The notes under the pieces were generated by a model, which did not search any database, had not been told where the DNA came from, and was given only the letters and a program-made list of their open reading frames with translations. Positions 2,811 to 15,410 of a stretch of 64,000 nt of DNA are shown one piece after another. The position numbers and the translations under genes are program-made. Within the stretch, counting starts at the first letter, position 1. Every line of letters starts with the position of its first letter. Origin of the DNA: Anaerolinea thermolimosa (lineage in GTDB: Bacteria > Chloroflexota > Anaerolineae > Anaerolineales > Anaerolineaceae); assembly GCF_001050195.2 (NCBI RefSeq), contig NZ_DF967965.1:2263982-2327981 (forward strand), written 5' to 3'.

Positions 2811-4118
2811 ATGGATGAAAAACAACATAAACGAGCTATCTGGGCCTGGACGTTCTACGACTGGGCCAATTCGGCCTTTGCCACGACCATCATGGCCGCC
2901 GTTTTACCCGTGTATTATGCCTCAGTAGCCGGCGCTACCCTGCCAGGTAACCTGGCCACGGTTTACTGGGCCTACACAACATCCATCAGTCTGCTCATCG
3001 CGGCGGTGCTTAGCCCCATCCTGGGCGCAGTTGCCGACTTCACCGGGGGTAAAAAGCGTTTTCTTACCATCTTTATGCTCCTCGGGGTAGCTGGAACAGC
3101 CCTGTTATACTTCGTCCGCACCGGTGACTGGCTCATGGCTTCCATTTTCTTCATTCTTGGAGATGTCGGTTTTGCCGGTTCCCTCGTGTTCTACGACGCT
3201 CTCCTTCCTCATGTGGCACGACCCGACGAAATTGATCAGGTCTCTTCGCGTGGATATGCCATCGGGTACCTGGGCGGAGGACTGCTTCTGGCCATCAATC
3301 TGGCAATGATCATGCTGGCGCCCCCCGAATTAACCGGCCTCATGACCCGGCTTTCGTTTCTCAGTGTTGCCCTCTGGTGGTTTGTATTTTCCATTCCCCT
3401 CCTGCGCATCGTTCAGGAACCCCCACGCCGCATTCAGGCCGGTGAACTGGGGGTTAATCCGGTGCGGGTATCATTTCAGCGACTGGCGCACACCTTTCGC
3501 GAAATCACCCACTTTCGCGATCTGTTCCTTTTCCTGGTCGCCTTCTGGTTCTACAACGACGGCATTGGTACCATTATTAAAATGGCCACCATTTACGGCG
3601 CCGAGATTGGAATTGGCCAGACCACCCTCATTGGAACGCTCCTCATGGTGCAATTCGTGGGCATTCCTTTTGCGTTTCTTTTCGGCTGGCTGGCCAAACG
3701 GATTGGGACGAAAACCTCCATCTACATCAGCCTGCTGGTTTACACGGGTATTTCCATTGCAGGCTTTTTTATGTCGCAAGAATGGCATTTTTGGGCGCTG
3801 GGGTTCGCTGTGGCTACCGTACAGGGGGGCAGTCAGGCACTCAGTCGCTCGTTGTTTGGCCGCATGGTGCCCCGCAGTAAGTCTGCCGAATTTTTTGGTT
3901 TCTTCTCGGTGAGTGAAAAATTCGCTGGCATTGCTGGCCCATTTGTCTTTGGTGTAGTTGGGCAGATTGTCGGCCACAGCCGGTTGAGTATTATTTCGCT
4001 GATCATCTTCTTTGTTATCGGGGCGGCTCTGCTCACCCGTGTCAATGAACAGGAAGGCATCCGGGCCGCAGAAGCTGAAGAGACCAGCTTAATTGCCGCC
4101 TCGATGCCAACTCAATAA
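2811..4118 (+). CDS. UMF1/Atg22-type MFS transporter
   Basis: A 435-residue inner-membrane protein with about 12 hydrophobic segments. The opening WAWTFYDWANSAFATT is typical of the UMF1 (Atg22-like) branch of the major facilitator superfamily; the substrate is unknown. ATG 2811 is chosen because the longer frame from 2724 overlaps the tRNA gene, and GAGGGAG lies upstream of 2811. A TATAAT box stands at 2768-2773. From codon 153 on, the gene lies inside the 1025-bp duplicated unit. GGAGGAGG after the stop is the ribosome-binding site of the next frame. Confidence 0.87.
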   Translation: MDEKQHKRAIWAWTFYDWANSAFATTIMAAVLPVYYASVAGATLPGNLATVYWAYTTSISLLIAAVLSPILGAVADFTGGKKRFLTIFMLLGVAGTALLYFVRTGDWLMASIFFILGDVGFAGSLVFYDALLPHVARPDEIDQVSSRGYAIGYLGGGLLLAINLAMIMLAPPELTGLMTRLSFLSVALWWFVFSIPLLRIVQEPPRRIQAGELGVNPVRVSFQRLAHTFREITHFRDLFLFLVAFWFYNDGIGTIIKMATIYGAEIGIGQTTLIGTLLMVQFVGIPFAFLFGWLAKRIGTKTSIYISLLVYTGISIAGFFMSQEWHFWALGFAVATVQGGSQALSRSLFGRMVPRSKSAEFFGFFSVSEKFAGIAGPFVFGVVGQIVGHSRLSIISLIIFFVIGAALLTRVNEQEGIRAAEAEETSLIAASMPTQ

Positions 4119-5317
4119 CCCGGAGGAGGATCATGATGCCCCAAGACCCCATTCGTGTGGCCATTGTCGGAACCAGCAAGCGTTCCAGTTATTTATACGC
4201 TCCCCTGCTTCGCGCTTTACCCCGCGAAGTAAAACTTGTCTCCATCTGGGGGCGCAGTGAAGCGAGCGCCCGGGCCCTGGGAGAACAACTCAACCTGGGC
4301 GGAGGACTGCTTCTGGCCATCAATCTGGCAATGATCATGCTGGCGCCCCCCGAATTAACCGGCCTCATGACCCGGCTTTCGTTTCTCAGTGTTGCCCTCT
4401 GGTGGTTTGTATTTTCCATTCCCCTCCTGCGCATCGTTCAGGAACCCCCACGCCGCATTCAGGCCGGTGAACTGGGGGTTAATCCGGTGCGGGTATCATT
4501 TCAGCGACTGGCGCACACCTTTCGCGAAATCACCCACTTTCGCGATCTGTTCCTTTTCCTGGTCGCCTTCTGGTTCTACAACGACGGCATTGGTACCATT
4601 ATTAAAATGGCCACCATTTACGGCGCCGAGATTGGAATTGGCCAGACCACCCTCATTGGAACGCTCCTCATGGTGCAATTCGTGGGCATTCCTTTTGCGT
4701 TTCTTTTCGGCTGGCTGGCCAAACGGATTGGGACGAAAACCTCCATCTACATCAGCCTGCTGGTTTACACGGGTATTTCCATTGCAGGCTTTTTTATGTC
4801 GCAAGAATGGCATTTTTGGGCGCTGGGGTTCGCTGTGGCTACCGTACAGGGGGGCAGTCAGGCACTCAGTCGCTCGTTGTTTGGCCGCATGGTGCCCCGC
4901 AGTAAGTCTGCCGAATTTTTTGGTTTCTTCTCGGTGAGTGAAAAATTCGCTGGCATTGCTGGCCCATTTGTCTTTGGTGTAGTTGGGCAGATTGTCGGCC
5001 ACAGCCGGTTGAGTATTATTTCGCTGATCATCTTCTTTGTTATCGGGGCGGCTCTGCTCACCCGTGTCAATGAACAGGAAGGCATCCGGGCCGCAGAAGC
5101 TGAAGAGACCAGCTTAATTGCCGCCTCGATGCCAACTCAATAACCCGGAGGAGGATCATGATGCCCCAAGACCCCATTCGTGTGGCCATTGTCGGAACCA
5201 GCAAGCGTTCCAGTTATTTATACGCTCCCCTGCTTCGCGCTTTACCCCGCGAAGTAAAACTTGTCTCCATCTGGGGGCGCAGTGAAGCGAGCGCCCGGGC
5301 CCTGGGAGAACAACTCA
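3268..5317. repeat. perfect 1025-bp tandem duplication
   Basis: Bases 3268-4292 recur as 4293-5317 without visible change. ACCTG occurs at 3268-3272, at the junction 4293-4297 and at the end 5318-5322, again a microhomology signature. The unit carries the last two thirds of the UMF1 transporter gene and the first 53 codons of the oxidoreductase gene. Intact copies of both genes remain (2811-4118 and 5158-6312), with a chimeric frame between them. Confidence 0.95.
4133..5143 (+). pseudogene. chimeric ORF: oxidoreductase N-terminus fused to MFS C-terminus
   Basis: An open 336-codon frame made by the duplication. The first 55 residues are the Rossmann-fold start of the Gfo/Idh/MocA protein (VAIVGTSKRSS), joined in frame to the last 281 residues of the UMF1 transporter. 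It keeps a strong ribosome-binding site (GGAGGAGG) and could be translated. It lacks the oxidoreductase catalytic half and the first five or so transporter helices, so function is unlikely. I class it as a duplication by-product. Confidence 0.8.
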
Positions 5318-6488: not shown

Positions 6489-7622
6489 GTGATCAAAGGC
6501 TTCTCTCTGGGGCGCATCTGGAAAGTCCCCATTCAATTACACTCCAGCTGGTTTGTCATCATTGCACTGGTTACCTGGGGCCTGGCAACAGGTTACTTCC
6601 CTGCCGCCTACCCAACGCTGAACACCCTCGCAATCTGGTTGCTTGGCGGATTGACGGCCCTTCTTTTCGCCGCATCTGTGCTCTTGCATGAACTGGGGCA
6701 CGTCGCTGTGGCTCTTCGCGAGAAAATTCCCGTGAAAGGGGTGACGCTTTTCATGTTTGGTGGAATGGCTCAGATGGAGCGCGAACCCCAGACTCCTGGC
6801 AGCGAATTCCGCATCGCCATTGCCGGCCCTCTGGTCAGTTTCTCGCTTGCTGGCTTTTTCGGCCTGCTCTGGGCCCTCGACCAGGCCATTCCATGGCTCG
6901 CAGCTCCCAGCGAATACCTCATGCGCATCAACCTGATCCTTGCAATCTTTAACCTGGTTCCCGGTTTCCCACTGGATGGAGGCCGGGTGCTCAGAGCAGT
7001 GATCTGGCAGATCACCCGCAGCCGATTCAAAGCCACTCGCATTGCATCACTGACAGGCCAGTTGTTCGCCATGGGATTCATCGGATTTGGCATCCTTACC
7101 GCCATAACAGGAAACATCTTCAACGGCCTCTGGATGGCCATGGTCGGCTGGCTCCTGAAAAACGCAGCTACCACCGTGTACCAGCAGGCAGGTATTGAGC
7201 AATCCCTTTCAGGGGTGACCGTCTCTCAGGTCATGGACAACCAGATGGTCGAGATTAACGGCCTGACCTCCATTCAGCAATTGGTCAATGAACACATTCT
7301 TCCAGATCGTCAACAGCAATTCCTTGTCCGTGATGGAGACAAAGTCGATGGGCTGGTTATGCTTGAAAACATTGTATCCATTCCACAACGACAGTGGCCC
7401 TATCTCACAGTCAGACAGGTGATGGCCTCCATCGATCATCTGGATGGTGTTGACCCGACCACTGAGCTCCTGACAGCCATCCATAAAATGGAGACCGAAA
7501 ACCGCTCGGTTCTTCCCGTTCTCCAGAATCACCATCTGGTAGGAATCTTACGAAAAGATCAGATTATCCGATTTCTTAACCTTGGGCTGGACACGGGAAT
7601 GAGAAACAGTTTTCAGGGTTAA
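6489..7622 (+). CDS. site-2 protease (M50 family) with CBS domains
   Basis: A 377-residue intramembrane zinc metalloprotease. Zinc ligands are H67 and H71 in HELGH (with catalytic E68) and D163 in NLVPGFPLDGGR. About six membrane helices fill residues 15-220. The C-terminal third (about 240-370) resembles a CBS pair, as in the SpoIVFB/MJ0392-like group, where CBS domains are thought to sense nucleotides. GTG 6489 follows AAAGGAGACACTG closely. Likely substrates are membrane-bound anti-sigma factors or signal-peptide remnants; none is encoded next to it. Confidence 0.88.
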   Translation: MIKGFSLGRIWKVPIQLHSSWFVIIALVTWGLATGYFPAAYPTLNTLAIWLLGGLTALLFAASVLLHELGHVAVALREKIPVKGVTLFMFGGMAQMEREPQTPGSEFRIAIAGPLVSFSLAGFFGLLWALDQAIPWLAAPSEYLMRINLILAIFNLVPGFPLDGGRVLRAVIWQITRSRFKATRIASLTGQLFAMGFIGFGILTAITGNIFNGLWMAMVGWLLKNAATTVYQQAGIEQSLSGVTVSQVMDNQMVEINGLTSIQQLVNEHILPDRQQQFLVRDGDKVDGLVMLENIVSIPQRQWPYLTVRQVMASIDHLDGVDPTTELLTAIHKMETENRSVLPVLQNHHLVGILRKDQIIRFLNLGLDTGMRNSFQG

Positions 7623-7672: not shown

Positions 7673-7701
7673 TTGACAAATCAGATGGCCGCTGGTAAGA
7701 T
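7673..7701 (+). promoter_or_regulatory. his operon promoter
   Basis: TTGACA (7673-7678), a 17-base spacer and TAAGAT (7696-7701): a near-consensus sigma-70 promoter. Counting from the -10 box, transcription should start at 7708-7709, exactly at the ATG of the leader peptide, so that message would be leaderless. Confidence 0.8.
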
Positions 7702-7708
7702 AGGCACC

Positions 7709-7762
7709 ATGCAGTTCAACATTTCCCTGCGCCATCATCATACCAGCCTCCCCCCAGCCTGA
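7709..7762 (+). CDS. hisL: his leader peptide with three His codons
   Basis: ATG 7709 opens a 17-codon frame translating as MQFNISLRHHHTSLPPA and ending in TGA 7760-7762. Three consecutive CAT codons (7733-7741) are the histidine sensor. The peptide sits between a strong promoter and an intrinsic terminator upstream of hisG, the arrangement of enterobacterial hisL. The frame is also open upstream to ATG 7685, but that lies inside the promoter spacer. No ribosome-binding site precedes ATG 7709, consistent with leaderless initiation. Confidence 0.85.
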   Translation: MQFNISLRHHHTSLPPA

Positions 7763-7830
7763 CCGGAGGTCGGTAGTCTTTTCGTACATCCAGAAACAGA
7801 ACTATCCCCCGGTCACCGGGGGATTTTTTT
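7742..7830 (+). promoter_or_regulatory. transcription attenuator of the his operon
   Basis: Four mutually exclusive segments are visible. Segment 1, ACCAGCCTCC (7742-7751), directly follows the His codons and pairs with segment 2, GGAGGTCGGT (7765-7774), with one mismatch and one G-U pair. The overlapping form of segment 2, TGACCGGAGG (7760-7769), pairs with segment 3, CCCCCGGTCA (7806-7815), with one mismatch. Segment 3 also forms the terminator CCCCCGG-TCA-CCGGGGG (7806-7822), followed by seven T at 7824-7830. A ribosome stalled at the His codons would cover segment 1, free segment 2 to form the antiterminator and let transcription reach hisG. Confidence 0.85.
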
Positions 7831-7855
7831 ATTCTCAATAACTCAGGAGTCATGG

Positions 7856-8869
7856 ATGAGTAACCTTTCAACCTTTCCACCCCTTCGTCTCTCACTCCCT
7901 TCCAAAGGGCGGCTGGCCGAAGACGCTGTAGAGTTTCTCAATGCCTGTGGTTTACGCATTTACAAGCCTAACCCGCGGCAGTATGAGGCTACCATTCCGG
8001 CACTCCCCGGCCTGAATGTACTCTTTCAACGCCCGGCGGATATTGTCGTCAGTGTGCGTGATGGCAGCGTGGACTTTGGAATCACTGGAATCGATGTCAT
8101 CGCCGAACGCCGCGGAGAAAACGGCCACCTGATGATTCTGCATGAGGCCCTCGGTTTTGGGGCTTGCTCTTTAAGACTGGCGGTACCCGAAAGCTGGAGT
8201 GAAGTAAACGACCTCGCCGCATTACGGGCCCACACAGTGATGCTGGGGCGGCCCCTCCGGGTAGCTACCAAATATCCTCTCCTAACCGGCAATTTCCTCA
8301 ACCGCGCTAACATTGAGCATATCCTGATCTCAGCTGAAGGGACGCTGGAAACTGCACCGGCCATCGGTTATGCCGATATTATTTCTGACCTGGTATCTTC
8401 CGGCCAAACCCTGCGAGATAATCGCCTGAAACCCCTCCAGGATGGGCTGATTCAAGATTCGCAGGCCGCCCTCATTGCCAACCGGCAGAGCCTTAAAAAC
8501 AACCCTGCGGCCCTGCAAATGGCCCGCCAGCTCCTTGAATACTTTGAAGCCCACCTGCGTGCAAGCGAAGAACTGGCCATTTTTGCCAACATCCGAGGCG
8601 CTTCTCCAGAAGCCATTGCCGAACTTATCTTTACCCAGCCCACCATTGCTGGCCTGCAAGGCCCAACCATTTCGCGTGTAGTGGTACGCTCCGGCGATCC
8701 AAACTGGTATGCGGTCAATATTATTGTGCCGCGTGCCCGTCTTTTTCAGGCCGTGAATGAATTGCGGGCAATTGGTGGAAGCGGCGTAGTGGTAATGCCC
8801 GTCAGTTACATCTTTGAAGAGGAACCCCCGCGTTACAGCGCCATGCTCCGTATGCTGGAAGAAAGGTAG
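7856..8869 (+). CDS. hisG: ATP phosphoribosyltransferase, long form
   Basis: First enzyme of histidine biosynthesis: it joins ATP and PRPP to give phosphoribosyl-ATP. It has 337 residues, longer than the roughly 300 usual for the long form. The catalytic part starts [12 protein letters not shown] and includes the PRPP-loop-like stretch [21 protein letters not shown]. The C-terminal part ([28 protein letters not shown]) matches the ACT-like His-binding regulatory domain, which explains the absence of hisZ. Start ATG 7856 has AGGAG at 7845-7849; an earlier ATG at 7852 meets a stop after three codons. First structural gene of the operon. Confidence 0.95.
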
Positions 8870-8874
8870 ACCCC

Positions 8875-10197
8875 ATGTTAAAACGCTACGATCCTGAGAC
8901 AGCCCGGCAGACCATCCTCAAGCGCACCCCACTGGATGATATGGAGGTGCCCGTTGCTGTGATTGAGAGCCTTCAGAAGCTTTTTGGTGAACCTCTGACA
9001 CCCGATCAGGCCGTACAGCGCATCCTTCGAGATGTGCGAACACGCGGCGATACCGCCCTGCGAGAGTGGACGACCCGTCTTGACGGACAAACCCCGCAGA
9101 GTTTCCGCATCTCCCCCGACGAGACCAGAACTGCTCTGAAAAAAATTACCCCGGCTCAGCGTGAGGCTCTGGAACTGGCAGCTGACCGCATTCGGCGTTT
9201 TCATCAGGCACAGCCGGTCACCAGCTGGATGACCAACCAGCTGGGAGGAACGCTTGGCCAGTTCATCCGTCCAATTCGCCGGGTGGGAGTGTACGTTCCC
9301 GGAGGGAGCGCCCCCCTGCCCTCTTCGGTGTTAATGTCCGTCGTGCCAGCACAGGTAGCCGGAGTACAAGAGATCGTCGTGGTTGCTCCTCCTCAACGTG
9401 GAACCGGCCAGATAGCCCCCATCATCCTGGCCGCCTGTGCTCTGGTGGGGGTCGAGGAGGTTTATGCCCTGGGTGGCGCGCAGGCCATTGCCGCTCTGGC
9501 GTTCGGCACCGAAAGTATTCCCCGGGTGGATAAAATTTTTGGCCCCGGCAATCTTTTTGTGACTCTGGCGAAGAAACAAGTTTATGGAGTGGTGGGCATC
9601 GATGGCCTGGCCGGCCCCACTGAGACCCTGGTGATCGCCGACGAAACTGCCAACCCTGAATGGGTTGCAGCCGACTTGCTGGCCCAGGCCGAACATGACG
9701 TGCTCGCTTCGGCAATCCTTTTGACCCCCTCTGCAACGCTGGCCGAACAGACCGCTTTGGCGGTTGCCCGCCAGCTGGAACAACGGTCGCGCGCCGAAGT
9801 TATTTCCCAATCGCTGGCCAACCGCAGCGGCGCCGTAGTTACCAGAGACCTGGATGAAGCCGTTATGTTGGCCAATGAATACGCCCCTGAGCATCTTTGC
9901 CTGGCTGTTCGTGATCCATGGCGTCTGGCGGAACGCATCCATGCCGCGGGGGGAGTCTTCCTGGGGGAACACTCCTTCGAAGTGCTTGGCGATTACGTGG
10001 CCGGCCCAAGCCATGTAATGCCTACCGGCGGTTCAGCGCGGTTCGCCTCACCACTGAATGTGTTGGATTTCATCCACATCGTCAGCCTTATTGCCCTGGA
10101 CGAAACCACCACCCGGCAAATCGCCCCAAAAGCGGCGGAGATCGCCCACGCGGAGGGATTAGACGCCCATGCCTTTTCTGCGGAGGTGCGCCTGTGA
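8875..10197 (+). CDS. hisD: histidinol dehydrogenase
   Basis: Zinc-dependent NAD+ oxidoreductase that converts L-histidinol to L-histidine in the last two steps. The 440 residues are of normal length. Signature stretches include [52 protein letters not shown] and [29 protein letters not shown], with the C-terminal [18 protein letters not shown]. It starts five bases after hisG and its stop overlaps the hisC start as GTGA. Confidence 0.97.
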
Positions 10198-11300
10198 AAC
10201 CCGCCCAACGGTTCGAGACTTTTCCTCCCTATACCCCTATTGAACCTTTCGAGGTACTGTCGGAGCGACTGGGAATCCCCCCCGATCGCATTGTTAAACT
10301 CGATGCGAACGAAAACCCTTACGGCCCTTCACCCAAAGCCCGTGCGGCTCTGGCGAACCTCGCCTATGCGCATATTTACCCCGACCCCGAAAGCCGCGCC
10401 CTGAGGAACGCTCTTTCTGCCTTCACCCATGTACCGGTAGATTACCTGATGGCCGGTTCCGGTGCCGATGAGTTAATCGACCTTGTCCTTCGTGTAATTC
10501 TTGACCCCGGCGATTGTGTCCTTCATTGCCCGCCCACTTTTGGAATGTATTCTTTTGACACCCTGCTTAATGGCGGTCAGGTGATCGATGTGCCGCGTCG
10601 GGCCGATTTTTCTCTGGATCTACCACGCATCCAACAGGTAATCGCCGACCGCGCGCCCCGGGTAATCTTCCTTACCGCTCCCAACAACCCCGACGGACGC
10701 TTTCCAACCTGTGAAGAAGTGAACACCGTCCTTGATAGCCCCAGCCTGGTCGTTATAGATGAAGCCTATATTGAGTTCACTCATGGAGATGGACGCCTCG
10801 GCCAGGGTCGCAGCCTCATCCGCCAGGTAGTAGAGCGTGAAAATCTGATCGTCCTTCGCACCTTCAGCAAATGGGCAGGGCTGGCCGGGCTTCGTGTCGG
10901 TTATGGGGCTTTTCCCCGCTGGCTCATGCCCATCCTCTGGAAAGCCAAACAACCCTACAACGTGAATGTCGCCGCCAGTGAGGCTGCGATTGCCTCCTTA
11001 CAGGACCTGGACATACTGGCCGAAAATGTGGAGAGAATTAAAACCGAGCGTACACGCCTCTTTCAGAAACTCTCCGAAATTTCGTACCTGCGCCCTTTTC
11101 CCTCTGAAGCCAATTTTATCCTCTGCCGGGTAGAAGGCCTCGACGCCGCCGGGCTGAAGAGAATCCTCGCCGCGCAGGGGATTCTGGTACGCCATTATGC
11201 CACTCCCCTGCTCCAGAATTTCATTCGCATTTCGGTCGGCCGGCCACAGGATACCGACATCCTTCTGGAAACCTTGCGAAAGATTGAGGAAACCCTATGA
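10194..11300 (+). CDS. hisC: histidinol-phosphate aminotransferase
   Basis: PLP-dependent class I/II aminotransferase acting on imidazole acetol phosphate. It has 368 residues from GTG 10194, chosen because it overlaps the hisD stop as GTGA and has GGAGG at 10182-10186. The frame is open further upstream, but that part is inside hisD. Motifs: [13 protein letters not shown] at the N-terminus, [17 protein letters not shown], and the PLP lysine in [16 protein letters not shown]. Its stop overlaps the next gene as ATGA. Confidence 0.95.
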
Positions 11301-12442
11301 AAGTTGCTGTGATCCTTTATGATGGATTTTCCAGTCTGGAATTTTCTACCCTCTACGAGCCCCTTGCCCGGGCCGCATGGAATGCTCCCGGTCTCCTTCA
11401 ATGCGACCTTTGCTCTCCTTACAGCGAAGTCTTTGACGCTTATGGATTGCACTACTATCCCACCCGTATGACTTCCTCCCTGCAAGGGTATGATCTTCTC
11501 TGTGTTCCCGGCGGTCCGGGGGCTTCGAAGCAGGTTGAAAATCCTTCCTTCCTCTCCTGGCTCGCCACTGCCCGAGACACCCCGCAAATCCTCCTCATTG
11601 GGCATGGAGCCCTTTTACTGGCAGCTGCGGGTCTATTAAAGGGGCACGAAATTGCTTCACCGCCAGAAGTAGAAGCCAGGCTCTCCAGCCTGGGAGTTCA
11701 TCCCTCGCCTCAACCGTTGGTTTTGGACGGCCCGGTGCTCAGCGCCAGTGATATCCGAGCAGCACTCGACCTGGCGCAGGCGGTAGCACGCAGTTTAATT
11801 CAGGGTATGCCCCTGCGCAGTATATCAGGGGCATCAGACGCTACCTTGCCTCAGCCTCGGCTGGTCACCACCGAGCGAAAAACCGCCGAGACAAACATTA
11901 CCGTCCGGCTTAACCTGGACGGATGCGGAAAACACCAGATTCAAACCGGTCTCCCGTTCCTTGACCACATGTTAACCCAGGTAGCCGTGCATGGTCTATT
12001 TGACCTGCAGGTGGATGCACAGGGCGACCTGCAAATTGACGCTCATCATACCCTGGAAGACGTCGCTCTCACCCTGGGGTTGGCCTTCCAACAGGCGCTT
12101 GGAGATCGCGCTGGAATTGTACGAATGGCTTCCGCAGAAGTTCCCATGGACGACAGCCTGGCCCGGGTCACCGTAGATTTCTCTGGAAGACCGTACTGCG
12201 TTTTTCAGGGGAATTGGACACTTCCATCCGTTGGCGGGATACCCAATACTCTTTTTGTCCATTTTTTCGAAAGCCTTGCACAGAACGCCCGCTGCAATTT
12301 GCACGCCATCATCCAGTACGGGAACGACGACCACCACAAAGCCGAAGCCCTCTTTAAAGCTCTCGGCAGAGCCTTCTGCACTGCCACCCGGCTTGATCCG
12401 CGTCGGGGGAGCTTCATTCCCTCCAGTAAGGGGGTCTTATGA
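11297..12442 (+). CDS. hisB: fusion of a degenerate DJ-1/PfpI domain with imidazoleglycerol-phosphate dehydratase
   Basis: 381 residues, twice the normal HisB length. Residues about 190-381 are a complete HisB, with metal-binding motifs DHML, HHTLEDV and DDHHKAEALFK; it dehydrates imidazoleglycerol phosphate in the sixth step. Residues 1 to about 175 read as a DJ-1/PfpI glutamine-amidotransferase-like domain (VAVILYDGFSSLEFSTLYEPL, CVPGGPGA, LLLAAAGLL). At the nucleophile elbow the usual Cys-His-Gly reads Gly-His-Gly, with G102 replacing the catalytic Cys, so the domain should be non-enzymatic. The frame is continuous with no internal ribosome-binding site, and both ends overlap neighbours by ATGA. 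Confidence 0.88.
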   Translation: MKVAVILYDGFSSLEFSTLYEPLARAAWNAPGLLQCDLCSPYSEVFDAYGLHYYPTRMTSSLQGYDLLCVPGGPGASKQVENPSFLSWLATARDTPQILLIGHGALLLAAAGLLKGHEIASPPEVEARLSSLGVHPSPQPLVLDGPVLSASDIRAALDLAQAVARSLIQGMPLRSISGASDATLPQPRLVTTERKTAETNITVRLNLDGCGKHQIQTGLPFLDHMLTQVAVHGLFDLQVDAQGDLQIDAHHTLEDVALTLGLAFQQALGDRAGIVRMASAEVPMDDSLARVTVDFSGRPYCVFQGNWTLPSVGGIPNTLFVHFFESLAQNARCNLHAIIQYGNDDHHKAEALFKALGRAFCTATRLDPRRGSFIPSSKGVL

Positions 12443-13053
12443 ACCGGATAGACGCCATCCTGATCGATGCTGGAACCGGCAATCTGCATTCGGTTCACCA
12501 TGCCCTGCAAGCCCTGGGGTATCGGATTCACGTCACTTCCGATCCCCATGACCTCCAGCAAGGGGGTAGAGTTATTTTACCGGGTGTGGGTGCTTTCGGC
12601 GCTTTTATGCAGGGATTGAAAGAGCACGCTCTGGACGAGGTTGTGCGTGAAGTTTTCCAGCGTGGCGACCCACTCTTTGGAATTTGCGTGGGTATGCAGG
12701 CTTTCTTCGAATCCAGCGCAGAGTCGGGCGATCACCCCGGCCTTGGTTTACTACCCGGGCGGGTGGTACGTTTTCCTGCTTTCAATGGGCTAAAAATTCC
12801 TCACACAGGATGGAATCAACTTCACTTCACCCACCCTTCCCCTCTATTTACTGACCTGGAGTCCGGTGTGTACGTTTACTTCAATCATTCCTATTTCTGT
12901 GATGCCACCCCCCCTGATGTGATCGCCCTGACGGATTATGGATTGGATTACTGCAGTGCCGTTCAACATGGCAACCTCTTTGGGGTACAATTTCACCCCG
13001 AAAAGAGCCAGAAAGTTGGCCGCAGGGTTCTGGAGAATTTCTTTAAAATATGA
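12439..13053 (+). CDS. hisH: imidazole glycerol phosphate synthase, glutaminase subunit
   Basis: Class I glutamine amidotransferase that feeds ammonia to HisF. The 204 residues are normal. The oxyanion and nucleophile motifs are LPGVGAFGAFM and GICVGMQAFFE (catalytic Cys). The His-x-Glu pair is in VQFHPEKSQ. The opening DAGTGNLHSV is typical. ATGA overlaps on both sides tie it to hisB and hisA. Confidence 0.96.
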   Translation: MNRIDAILIDAGTGNLHSVHHALQALGYRIHVTSDPHDLQQGGRVILPGVGAFGAFMQGLKEHALDEVVREVFQRGDPLFGICVGMQAFFESSAESGDHPGLGLLPGRVVRFPAFNGLKIPHTGWNQLHFTHPSPLFTDLESGVYVYFNHSYFCDATPPDVIALTDYGLDYCSAVQHGNLFGVQFHPEKSQKVGRRVLENFFKI

Positions 13054-13775
13054 GCGAATTTATTGTGTTTCCAGCCATCGATTTACGCGGTGGTAAGGTG
13101 GTGCGCCTCCAGGAAGGCGACCCTGAACGCCTTACAGCTTATTCCGACGATCCGGCCGCAGTTGCTGAACGATGGCTTACGGCCGGTGCACGCTGGCTTC
13201 ACGTAGTCAACCTTGATGGCGCTTTCGATCAGCCCGATTCGGCCAATCGTGAGGCATTGCGCGCTATCCTCCAGGTAGGAAAACGGTATCATGCCCGGGT
13301 TCAATTCGGCGGCGGTCTTCGCCATCTCCAGGCCGTTGAGCAGGTGCTCGAGCTGGGGGTAAGCCGGGTGGTTCTGGGGACCCTTGCCATCAAAGACCCC
13401 GCGACGCTTACCGAGGCCTTGAAACGCTGGGGCGAAGACCGCATCGCTGCCAGCCTGGATGCCCGCGATGGGCTTGTGCGGGTGCACGGCTGGCAACAGA
13501 CCACGGGTGTCTCTGCTCTGCAGGCCGCACTCATCCTGCGCCAGGCGGGGTTACACTGGCTTGTATTTACAGATATTGCCCGTGATGGCCTGCAAACCGG
13601 CCTTAACCTGCAGGCCACCTGCCAGATAGCCCGTGAAAGCGGGCTCGCAGTGGTTGCCTCCGGGGGAATCAGCAGTGCCGGTGAAGTTCAGGCTGTGCGG
13701 CAGGCCAACCTGGCGGGAGTCATCATCGGGCGGGCCCTTTATGAAGGCGCCATTCGCCTGGAGGAGGTGGTATAA
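13050..13775 (+). CDS. hisA: phosphoribosylformimino-AICAR-P isomerase
   Basis: A TIM-barrel isomerase of 241 residues that opens the ring of ProFAR to PRFAR. The N-terminal catalytic Asp lies in [18 protein letters not shown] and the second in [12 protein letters not shown]. Phosphate-binding loops are QFGGGLR and [12 protein letters not shown]. It is homologous to HisF, encoded next, with two bases between them. Confidence 0.96.
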
Positions 13776-13777
13776 AA

Positions 13778-14551
13778 ATGCTGGCAAAACGGATTATCCC
13801 CTGTATGGATATCGCCAATGGACGCATTGTTAAAGGAGTGCGTTTCACCAACCTTCGCGATGCGGGAGACCCCGTAGAACAGGCCCGGGCTTACGACGAA
13901 GCCGGAGCCGACGAACTGGCCTTTCTGGATATCTCTGCTACCCATGAGGGGCGTGAAACCGTGGTGGACACCGTGCGTCGGGTTGCCGAACAGGTTTTCC
14001 TGCCCCTCACGGTGGGCGGAGGAATTCGGAGTGTGGAGGATATGCGCCGCCTTCTGCTGGCCGGTGCCGATAAAGTGAGCATCAATTCTGCCGCGGTGCG
14101 TAACCCGAACCTGCTTAGAGAAGGAGCAGACCGATTTGGCAGTCAGTGTATTCTCCTCGCTATCGACGCGCGCCGTGTTTCCCATGCCCAGAAGGCACTC
14201 CGCTGGGAGGTGATCATCAACGGGGGACGGTTGCCCACCGGCCTGGATGCCGTCGAATGGGCCACGCGTGGCGTGGCTCTTGGCGCCGGTGAAATTCTTC
14301 TGACCAGCATGGATGCCGATGGCACTCTCTCTGGCTTCGATTTGGAATTAACCCGGGCCATCGCTGATGCCGTACCGGTGCCGGTGATCGCTTCGGGAGG
14401 TGCAGGAGCTCCGGAACACTTTGCCGCTGTGCTTACCGAGGGCCACGCTGACGCCGCTCTTGCGGCTTCGCTTTTCCATGATGGCAAATTACGTATTCCA
14501 GACCTCAAGGACTACCTTTTTGCCCGGGGTATTCCGGTGCGAAAGACTTAG
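13778..14551 (+). CDS. hisF: imidazole glycerol phosphate synthase, cyclase subunit
   Basis: A TIM-barrel cyclase of 257 residues that works with HisH to give imidazole glycerol phosphate and AICAR. Catalytic Asp residues lie in [18 protein letters not shown] and [14 protein letters not shown]. Phosphate loops are TVGGGIRS and [18 protein letters not shown] near the end of hisA serves as its ribosome-binding site. Confidence 0.97.
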
Positions 14552-14566: not shown

Positions 14567-14911
14567 ATGGAAACCGAAATCCACTTTGATGAACGCGGCC
14601 TTATCCCAGCCATCGTTCAGGATACCTCTACCGGAGAGGTGCTCATGCTTGCTTATATGAATCGTGAAGCACTGGAACGCACTCTGGCCACCGGCGAGAC
14701 CCACTTCTGGTCGCGCAGTCGGAAGGAACTCTGGCATAAGGGGGCCACCTCTGGAAACGTGCAGTACGTCACTTCAATCATGCTGGATTGTGACCAGGAT
14801 ACGTTACTGATCAAAGTCCACCCTGCCGGGCCTGCCTGCCATACCGGTGCCATCAGTTGTTTTTTCACCCCCCTACCCCTCAAAGAAAAGAACAGCCCCC
14901 ATGACTCTTGA
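14567..14911 (+). CDS. hisI: phosphoribosyl-AMP cyclohydrolase
   Basis: Third step of the pathway, opening the purine ring of PR-AMP. It has 114 residues and is a stand-alone enzyme, not fused to HisE. Motifs: [27 protein letters not shown], and the zinc/magnesium site [12 protein letters not shown] with GPACHTG. The last 11 bases overlap the hisE start. Confidence 0.95.
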
Positions 14912-15185
14912 AGAACTCTACCAGATCATCTGTGAACGCCGTGACCATCCAGTTGAGAATTCCTACACCAACCACCTTTTCAAGGCGGGAGAAGATGAGA
15001 TTCTCAAAAAAATTGGAGAAGAAGCAGTAGAGGTCATCCTCGCGGCCAAAGCCCAGGGAGACGAACGGCTGATCGAAGAAGTGGCCGATCTTGCCTATCA
15101 TACCCTCGTTTTACTGGCCTTCCGTGGCCTTTCACCTGCAGATATCTCAGCAGAATTAGGCCGGCGACATAAAAATAAAAAATGA
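14901..15185 (+). CDS. hisE: phosphoribosyl-ATP pyrophosphatase
   Basis: Second step, converting PR-ATP to PR-AMP. It has 94 residues from ATG 14901; the frame is open upstream but that part lies in hisI. It is an all-alpha MazG-like fold with the metal-binding motif [15 protein letters not shown] and [13 protein letters not shown]. Last gene of the operon; the terminator hairpin starts inside its final codons. No histidinol-phosphatase gene (hisN) is visible in the operon. Confidence 0.95.
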
Positions 15186-15224: not shown

Positions 15225-15410
15225 AGGTTCACCCCGCCATGCCGTGTGCTGCGGAGTTTTGAACCTGCTCTCGCAGGTGGGTGCCTACCCGGTAGCTTTG
15301 CCTTGGCCGAGACCTAACGCATTGCATCCGTGAGATTGACACCCTTTTTTTAAGTGTTGGCTCAAAACCGGTGATGCGGCATCACGAGCACAGCAGGGCT
15401 AACGCAAAGA
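15225..15410 (+). ncRNA. candidate structured RNA, possibly 6S-like
   Basis: A 292-base gap without a gene shows several helices. GTTTTGA (15256-15262) pairs with TCAAAAC (15362-15368), and TGTGCT (15245-15250) with AGCACA (15387-15392), giving a long rod. Inside lie the perfect hairpin ACCTGC-TCTC-GCAGGT (15263-15278) and, on the 3' strand, GTGAT-GCGGC-ATCAC (15371-15385). A rod with a central bubble and a small 3'-strand hairpin resembles 6S RNA, and the TTTTGAACC...GGTGGG stretch recalls 6S genes from memory. I see no strong promoter. Strand and ends are inferred. It could also be an unrelated RNA. Confidence 0.42.

Follow-up and report, generated by a model that had tools for sequence, protein, structure and literature searches.

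The enterobacterial hisL leader is an attenuator whose leader peptide is translated from a Shine-Dalgarno site. In Firmicutes, comparative prediction has placed leader-peptide attenuators before his genes, with three to five consecutive His codons followed by attenuator and terminator hairpins (PMC9413887). Leader ORFs can also lie at the very 5′ end of their message or lack a ribosome-binding site: the Sinorhizobium meliloti trpL transcript starts at the ATG of the leader ORF and undergoes ribosome-dependent transcription attenuation (PMC7298713), mycobacteria carry leaderless polycysteine short ORFs (Canestrari 2020, as cited in PMC9031893 and PMC13236596), and the Corynebacterium glutamicum ilvBNC leader has no ribosome-binding site (Morbach 2000, in the references of PMC4046766). 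Arginine is sensed through Arg codons of a leader ORF at Salmonella orf34-speF (PMC6386406). Within Chloroflexi, 4 of 12 genomes have been predicted to hold leaderless genes, which make up 4.0-5.7% of their genes (PMC3160421).

We analysed a 64,000-nt stretch of Anaerolinea thermolimosa DNA (the window). Comparison of its sequence with related genomes makes it highly likely that positions 7673-7830 form a leader-peptide attenuator of the his operon, with a predicted mRNA start at the leader AUG or immediately 5′ of it.

The his leader and its distribution

The A. thermolimosa genome comprises 4.17 Mb, and the nearest named relatives of its HisG belong to Anaerolinea (Chloroflexota). A sequence-only reading had described, ahead of a his operon, a near-consensus promoter, a 17-codon peptide with three consecutive His codons and three alternative helices. 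All of these are present. The promoter matches the consensus hexamers at 10 of 12 positions, with a TG preceding the -10 box; the coordinates of the helices check out, with mismatches on refolding; and all nine his genes are found by profile match. The features are as follows.

Ends at 7622: upstream gene preceding the promoter-like site; from its HELGH motif we take it to resemble a site-2 protease with CBS domains
7673..7701, plus strand: sigma-70-like promoter with -35 TTGACA (7673-7678), 17-nt spacer, TG and -10 TAAGAT (7696-7701), read in the sequence; its spacing to the ATG is conserved in relatives
7707..7709, plus strand: predicted transcription start, at or 1-2 nt 5′ of the leader ATG, placed from the 7-nt distance between -10 box and ATG
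7709..7762, plus strand: leader ORF of 17 codons, MQFNISLRHHHTSLPPA, with stop codon TGA at 7760-7762, read in the sequence
7733..7741, plus strand: His codons CAT CAT CAT, the predicted stall site, read in the sequence; His-rich clusters are conserved
7742..7751, plus strand: segment 1, pairing with 7765-7774 (best local fold -13.7 kcal/mol, one internal mismatch)
7760..7774, plus strand: segment 2, holding the stop codon; its TGACCGGAGG (7760-7769) pairs with 7806-7815 as the antiterminator
7804..7830, plus strand: intrinsic terminator (7804-7824) with a T tract of seven T (7824-7830); its 5′ arm is segment 3
7845-7849, plus strand: AGGAG, Shine-Dalgarno-like site of hisG, read in the sequence
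7856..8869, plus strand: hisG, long form with C-terminal domain (TIGR00070, TIGR03455)
8875..10197, plus strand: hisD (TIGR00069)
10179..11300, plus strand: hisC, start codon uncertain (TIGR01141)
11297..12442, plus strand: hisB with N-terminal DJ-1/PfpI domain (NF002116; PF01965, PF00475)
12439..13053, plus strand: hisH (TIGR01855)
13050..13775, plus strand: hisA (TIGR00007)
13778..14551, plus strand: hisF (TIGR00735)
14567..14911, plus strand: hisI (NF000768)
14904..15185, plus strand: hisE, start uncertain (TIGR03188)

As in hisL-type leaders, a short ORF containing consecutive His codons thus lies between a promoter and the first his gene, and the nine-gene operon that follows leader and terminator is complete, in the order hisGDCBHAFIE. 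The DJ-1/PfpI form of HisB has full-length matches in three other loci (L002, L004 and L007), and six further loci match its C-terminal part only. Directly past hisE lies a 6S RNA (15227-15402, minus strand). Elsewhere in the window, positions 3268-4592 hold a direct repeat whose two copies, each at least 300 nt long, are identical and spaced by 1025. The repeat doubles a portion of an Atg22-like MFS gene, thereby creating a chimeric ORF (4133-5143); it is either a recent duplication or an assembly artefact.

To follow the leader across relatives, we looked for HisG in 61 genomes of the order, 150 of the class and 201 of the phylum (the A. thermolimosa genome being in each set), as well as in a collection of named genomes. 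A His-rich leader ORF lies 5′ of hisG in 34 of the 35 same-order genomes with upstream sequence, A. thermolimosa included and counting two leaders whose His cluster is interrupted (L038 and L041); a 36th HisG match ends at a contig end and stands outside this count. No leader was detectable in the same-order genome L123. Four more loci of the order (L114, L144, L145 and L147) and three named ones (L005, L006 and L010) also carry a His-rich leader.

At the level of the class, we read the upstream regions from 80 of the 114 genomes with a HisG, plus G000, G047 and G060, which came through the order search. His-rich leaders precede 8 of the 33 other class loci whose HisG is nearest the window's; among these 33 long-form loci, L106 has too little upstream sequence, and in L096 the ORF is leaderless and its His run is just HH. 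Where long-form loci lack a leader, hisG in many cases sits close behind another reading frame. None of the 46 class loci whose HisG most resembles a short-form query (L044) has such a leader, nor do any of 18 loci outside the class, taken from the best 30 of 155 phylum matches. An archaeal HisG of 28% identity (L011) was left out.

For the further comparisons of his leaders we used 49 leader loci, selected on the presence of a short, His-rich ORF before hisG after 12 loci repeating another had been dropped; because the sequences are related, counts of these loci are not independent. The same His-rich-ORF rule found nothing in 51 upstream regions of ilvB, trpE, argG and cysK from related genomes, and it was satisfied by 2 of the 49 antisense strands and by 10 of 980 mononucleotide shuffles.

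Promoter spacing and the predicted leaderless start

The -10 box of a bacterial promoter usually ends about 6-7 nt before the transcription start. At the his leader, only 7 nt separate the end of the -10 box (7701) from the leader ATG (7709), a spacing that the sequence-only reading had left unremarked. A -10 box immediately 5′ of the start codon, with no Shine-Dalgarno site, is the arrangement by which leaderless mRNAs are recognized. Judged from the promoter consensus, the his leader ORF is very probably leaderless, and its 5′ untranslated region would measure about 0-5 nt; with the -10 box so near the ATG, there would be no room for a Shine-Dalgarno site.

The same spacing recurs among relatives. 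A promoter with at least 9 of 12 matches and a -10 box ending 5-10 nt before the ATG is found at 40 of the 49 leaders, compared with 7 of 3083 other ATGs in the same loci, where the in-frame ATG of each leader was picked partly by its promoter. Because this choice leaned on the promoter, we retested the 27 loci that have a single in-frame ATG before the His cluster. In every one of them, the best promoter in a scan of 0-60 nt ends 6-11 nt before that ATG, and in 24 it has at least 9 matches. Two weak leaders (L125 and L126) have weak or unusual promoters.

These measurements bear on whether the locus could instead be a classical attenuator led by a Shine-Dalgarno site, with transcription starting further upstream and a conventional 5′ untranslated region. 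Enterobacterial hisL works in this way, and three same-genus argG leaders (L170, L173 and L174) have their ATG 21-24 nt past a TATAAT, with Shine-Dalgarno-like purine words in between. The uniform placement of the best promoter in the single-ATG loci speaks against such an arrangement for his, as does the finding that none of the 49 his leaders has a Shine-Dalgarno-like site, compared with 33 of the 49 hisG starts. We therefore consider a start further upstream unlikely and retain the predicted leaderless start.

Alternative helices and the proposed mechanism

The terminator at 7804-7824 has 9 bp and a UCA loop, with a folding energy of -16.5 to -17.0 kcal/mol. The competing antiterminator (7760-7769 with 7806-7815) contains an A:C mismatch (7767/7808) and reaches -12.6 kcal/mol alone and about -22 kcal/mol with the neighbouring stem. 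The antiterminator arm TGACCGGAGG opens with the stop codon TGA, which lies in the TGACCGG of segment 2; the arm is identical in 7 of 7 aligned loci. In 47 of the 49 loci, the interval from the leader stop to hisG holds a terminator of -12 kcal/mol or stronger, compared with 14 of 294 dinucleotide shuffles. The rule missed L020 and L041 and, at L018, chose a hairpin over the stop codon; each of these three has a terminator-like hairpin nearer hisG by eye. L020 and L041 are absent from the 47- and 46-locus folding counts given below, and L018 is also absent from the 46-locus ones.

Column-wise covariation in a 13-sequence alignment was dropped, because the length of the terminator loop varies and shifts the register of the antiterminator. 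It was replaced by folding each locus separately alongside shuffles. One compensatory case is seen at L026, where segment 2 reads GATCGGC and the terminator arm GCCGATC.

We then computed the probability that the 5′ arm of the terminator is captured by upstream RNA for a ribosome footprint at either of two positions, the first His codon and the stop codon. Averaged over 46 loci, capture is 0.92 with the ribosome at His and 0.34 with the ribosome at the stop, compared with 0.63 and 0.51 for shuffled spacers. The difference between the two positions, 0.58, exceeds that of the shuffles (0.12 +/- 0.04, maximum 0.21). Other footprints give differences that are likewise far above the shuffles, with capture at His and at the stop of 0.89 and 0.42 for 10 nt, and of 0.93 and 0.30 for 16 nt. 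With the ribosome at the stop codon, the antiterminator is still present in 10 of 47 loci (20 of 46 with the 10-nt footprint and 12 of 46 with the 16-nt one).

Conservation of the peptide frame and of the pairings had been named beforehand as a point on which the sequence-only reading should be judged, and the His codons, the terminator and the stall-dependent antiterminator are all conserved in relatives. That reading had also proposed that a ribosome stalled at the His codons masks segment 1 and so allows antitermination. The stall-dependent antiterminator does appear in the folds; the masking of segment 1 is not decisive, as the antiterminator wins even when no ribosome is placed. At equilibrium without a ribosome its probability is 0.99 in A. 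thermolimosa and above 0.5 in 36 of 47 loci, which leaves a classical protector role for helix 1:2 unsupported, though in A. thermolimosa this helix would form first as the RNA emerges. Since the ribosome-free equilibrium favours the antiterminator, the equilibrium folds argue for a ribosome on the stop codon, within segment 2, as a better account of the off-state than a protector helix.

Together, these features suggest the following sequence of events. A ribosome would load on the raw 5′ end of the leader mRNA and read the three His codons, and its position on the leader would decide between termination ahead of hisG and readthrough. When charged tRNA-His is plentiful, the ribosome would reach the UGA at 7760 and cover segment 2, and the terminator (-17 kcal/mol) would form. 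When charged tRNA-His is scarce, the ribosome would stall at 7733-7741, leaving segment 2 free to pair with the emerging 5′ arm of the terminator, so that transcription would continue into hisGDCBHAFIE.

Some leader ORFs are arrest peptides. A specific nascent peptide, or else a small-molecule aptamer, might accordingly be what is sensed here, rather than occupancy of the His codons, and RNA elements such as TGACCGGAGG are indeed conserved in near relatives. Outside the His cluster, however, the peptides vary widely across the 49 leaders (for example MNAIFCQFHHHTSRPPA and MKYALKHHHHHIQPPHGREVYVRVPVTK). Codon choice within the leaders is skewed towards CAT (153 CAT and 56 CAC, compared with 77 CAT and 138 CAC in hisG stretches of up to 870 nt from the same loci, shorter where a locus ends; Fisher p = 7e-15), which would suit a sensor based on decoding. 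Rfam scans of the window, the locus and eight related loci (seven his and one argG) gave no cis-regulator above cut-off at the leaders; the His_leader family RF00514 scored 21.5 bits at the his leader against a gathering cut-off of 49, and the T-box family RF00230 had no match at the his locus. An arrest peptide or riboswitch is, on these grounds, very improbable. Least probable of all is a constitutive terminator of the upstream gene combined with a chance ORF and no regulation: some terminator is required for the gene that ends at 7622, but a promoter-like site sits between that gene and the terminator, and leader, promoter spacing and antiterminator all show conservation far beyond the controls.

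Similar leaders before other genes and comparison with known systems

An exact-pattern scan of the A. thermolimosa genome for TTGACA-N16-18-TANNNT-N5-8-ATG returned 17 places, compared with 3 for the reversed pattern. Besides his, these places include argG (MMMLDLKLRRKLTLSYTYQGTVGLSLHIQ, with CGA CGA and then a terminator) and two identical copies of cysK (MKLVNFGVLRSIACMCPWRGPVTLPR).

An argG above the family cut-off is present in 19 of 25 genomes. The counts that follow leave out two of these loci, L175 and L188, which have too little upstream sequence (L188 being cut before the start), as well as argG-like matches below the family cut-off. At all 17 argG loci with upstream sequence (L170-L187; that of A. 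thermolimosa is L171, G000:C1:1955656 onward), an Arg-containing leader ORF is followed by a terminator hairpin, which folds at -12 to -24 kcal/mol in 16 loci and was recognized by eye in L187. By the promoter rule, 12 of the 17 leaders, L187 among them, lie at leaderless promoter spacing. The antiterminator of the stalled state exceeds 0.5 in 15 of 16 loci (L173 fails, at 0.08) and survives a ribosome on the stop codon in 4 of 16, both computed without a shuffle control. The RxR criterion is loose and the leader starts were hand-picked, so that, taken alone, compelling cases are limited to the long Arg runs (RRRRR, RRRVRR, RRARR and RRSSRR). From its sequence, we regard the argG leader as a candidate arginine attenuator.

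For cysK, a leaderless leader encoding CMCP was found at the two A. thermolimosa copies and in three same-genus genomes (L241, L242 and L244), out of 17 loci; L251 has a weaker version with CIC. The same-genus locus L245 has no cysK leader, and 5 of the 17 loci gave no start motif. In A. thermolimosa, the cysK region occurs twice on contig C6 (the cysK leader loci are L142, L143 and L240-L244). By the promoter rule, leaderless leaders were found neither before ilvB (15 loci) nor before trpE (10 loci). Both trpE loci scanned carry a T-box (L225 from A. thermolimosa and L223 from a same-genus relative), from which the A. thermolimosa genome appears to mix T-box and leader-peptide sensing. At L127 (G000:C1:391880), a leaderless ORF of 29 codons followed by a terminator-like hairpin lies ahead of a gene.

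The his attenuator is probably one of several such leaders, and the occurrence of the same build with Arg codons before argG and, within the genus, with a Cys-containing leader before cysK suggests that it may be a habit of the class. A broader proposal, which we judge could equally well prove right or wrong, is that Anaerolineae run like-built sensors, each a promoter fused to a leaderless mini-gene that holds the sensed codons and is followed by an intrinsic terminator, for histidine (hisG), arginine (argG, with runs up to LRRRRRM) and cysteine (cysK, CMCP). Lacking an initiation region, leaderless messages would leave the operon on, as the default state, whenever initiation fails, and only ribosomes finishing the mini-gene would shut it, the reverse of the enterobacterial default. 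If the predicted his attenuator proves real, leader-peptide attenuation by amino acids would extend to a class of Chloroflexota, in a conserved variant with the sensor ORF at the very 5′ end of the transcript. Such a variant yields a testable prediction as to what initiation on a leaderless message does to an attenuator's default state. The his, argG and cysK leaders are short ORFs likely to escape gene callers, and in a group that has received little study they would supply three natural reporters of charged tRNA.

On sequence grounds, then, the his attenuator is ordinary in its logic and new in its place and build, being widely conserved, predicted leaderless and located in Anaerolineae. The sequence-only reading had known of no well-described his attenuator in Chloroflexota, and none is reported in the accessible portions of the open-licence literature searched, which likewise yielded no report of a leaderless his leader or of a leader-peptide attenuator before argG; as the search covered open-licence papers only, it speaks but weakly for a true absence. 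His attenuation on the one hand and leaderless leader peptides on the other have been described before, and no report of the two combined was found in the accessible portions of that same literature.

Each of the described systems shares part of this build. Salmonella orf34-speF has Arg codons in its leader ORF in common with the argG leaders of Anaerolineae, and differs in controlling putrescine synthesis through Rho, access to the ribosome-binding site and RNase G, rather than arginine synthesis through an intrinsic terminator (PMC6386406). The mycobacterial Cys ORFs and the C. glutamicum ilvBNC leader are likewise amino-acid-sensing leader ORFs without a Shine-Dalgarno site, but concern other amino acids in another phylum, and the mycobacterial case is described as acting on downstream translation. 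S. meliloti trpL, an experimentally studied system, belongs to Alphaproteobacteria and senses tryptophan (PMC7298713). The his attenuators of Firmicutes share a comparatively predicted leader with a His run and hairpins; they differ in phylum, and the accessible portions of that paper describe no leaderless leaders (PMC9413887). The hisL leader of E. coli and Salmonella (RF00514) has in common a leader peptide with consecutive His codons, an antiterminator and a rho-independent terminator ahead of the his operon (PMC3896937). Of the enterobacterial logic that had been assumed for the Anaerolinea locus, the codons, the terminator and, in computed folds, the antiterminator hold, whereas the leader itself departs from hisL: it has three His codons to the seven of hisL, is predicted to be leaderless, and shows no clear ribosome-free protector state.
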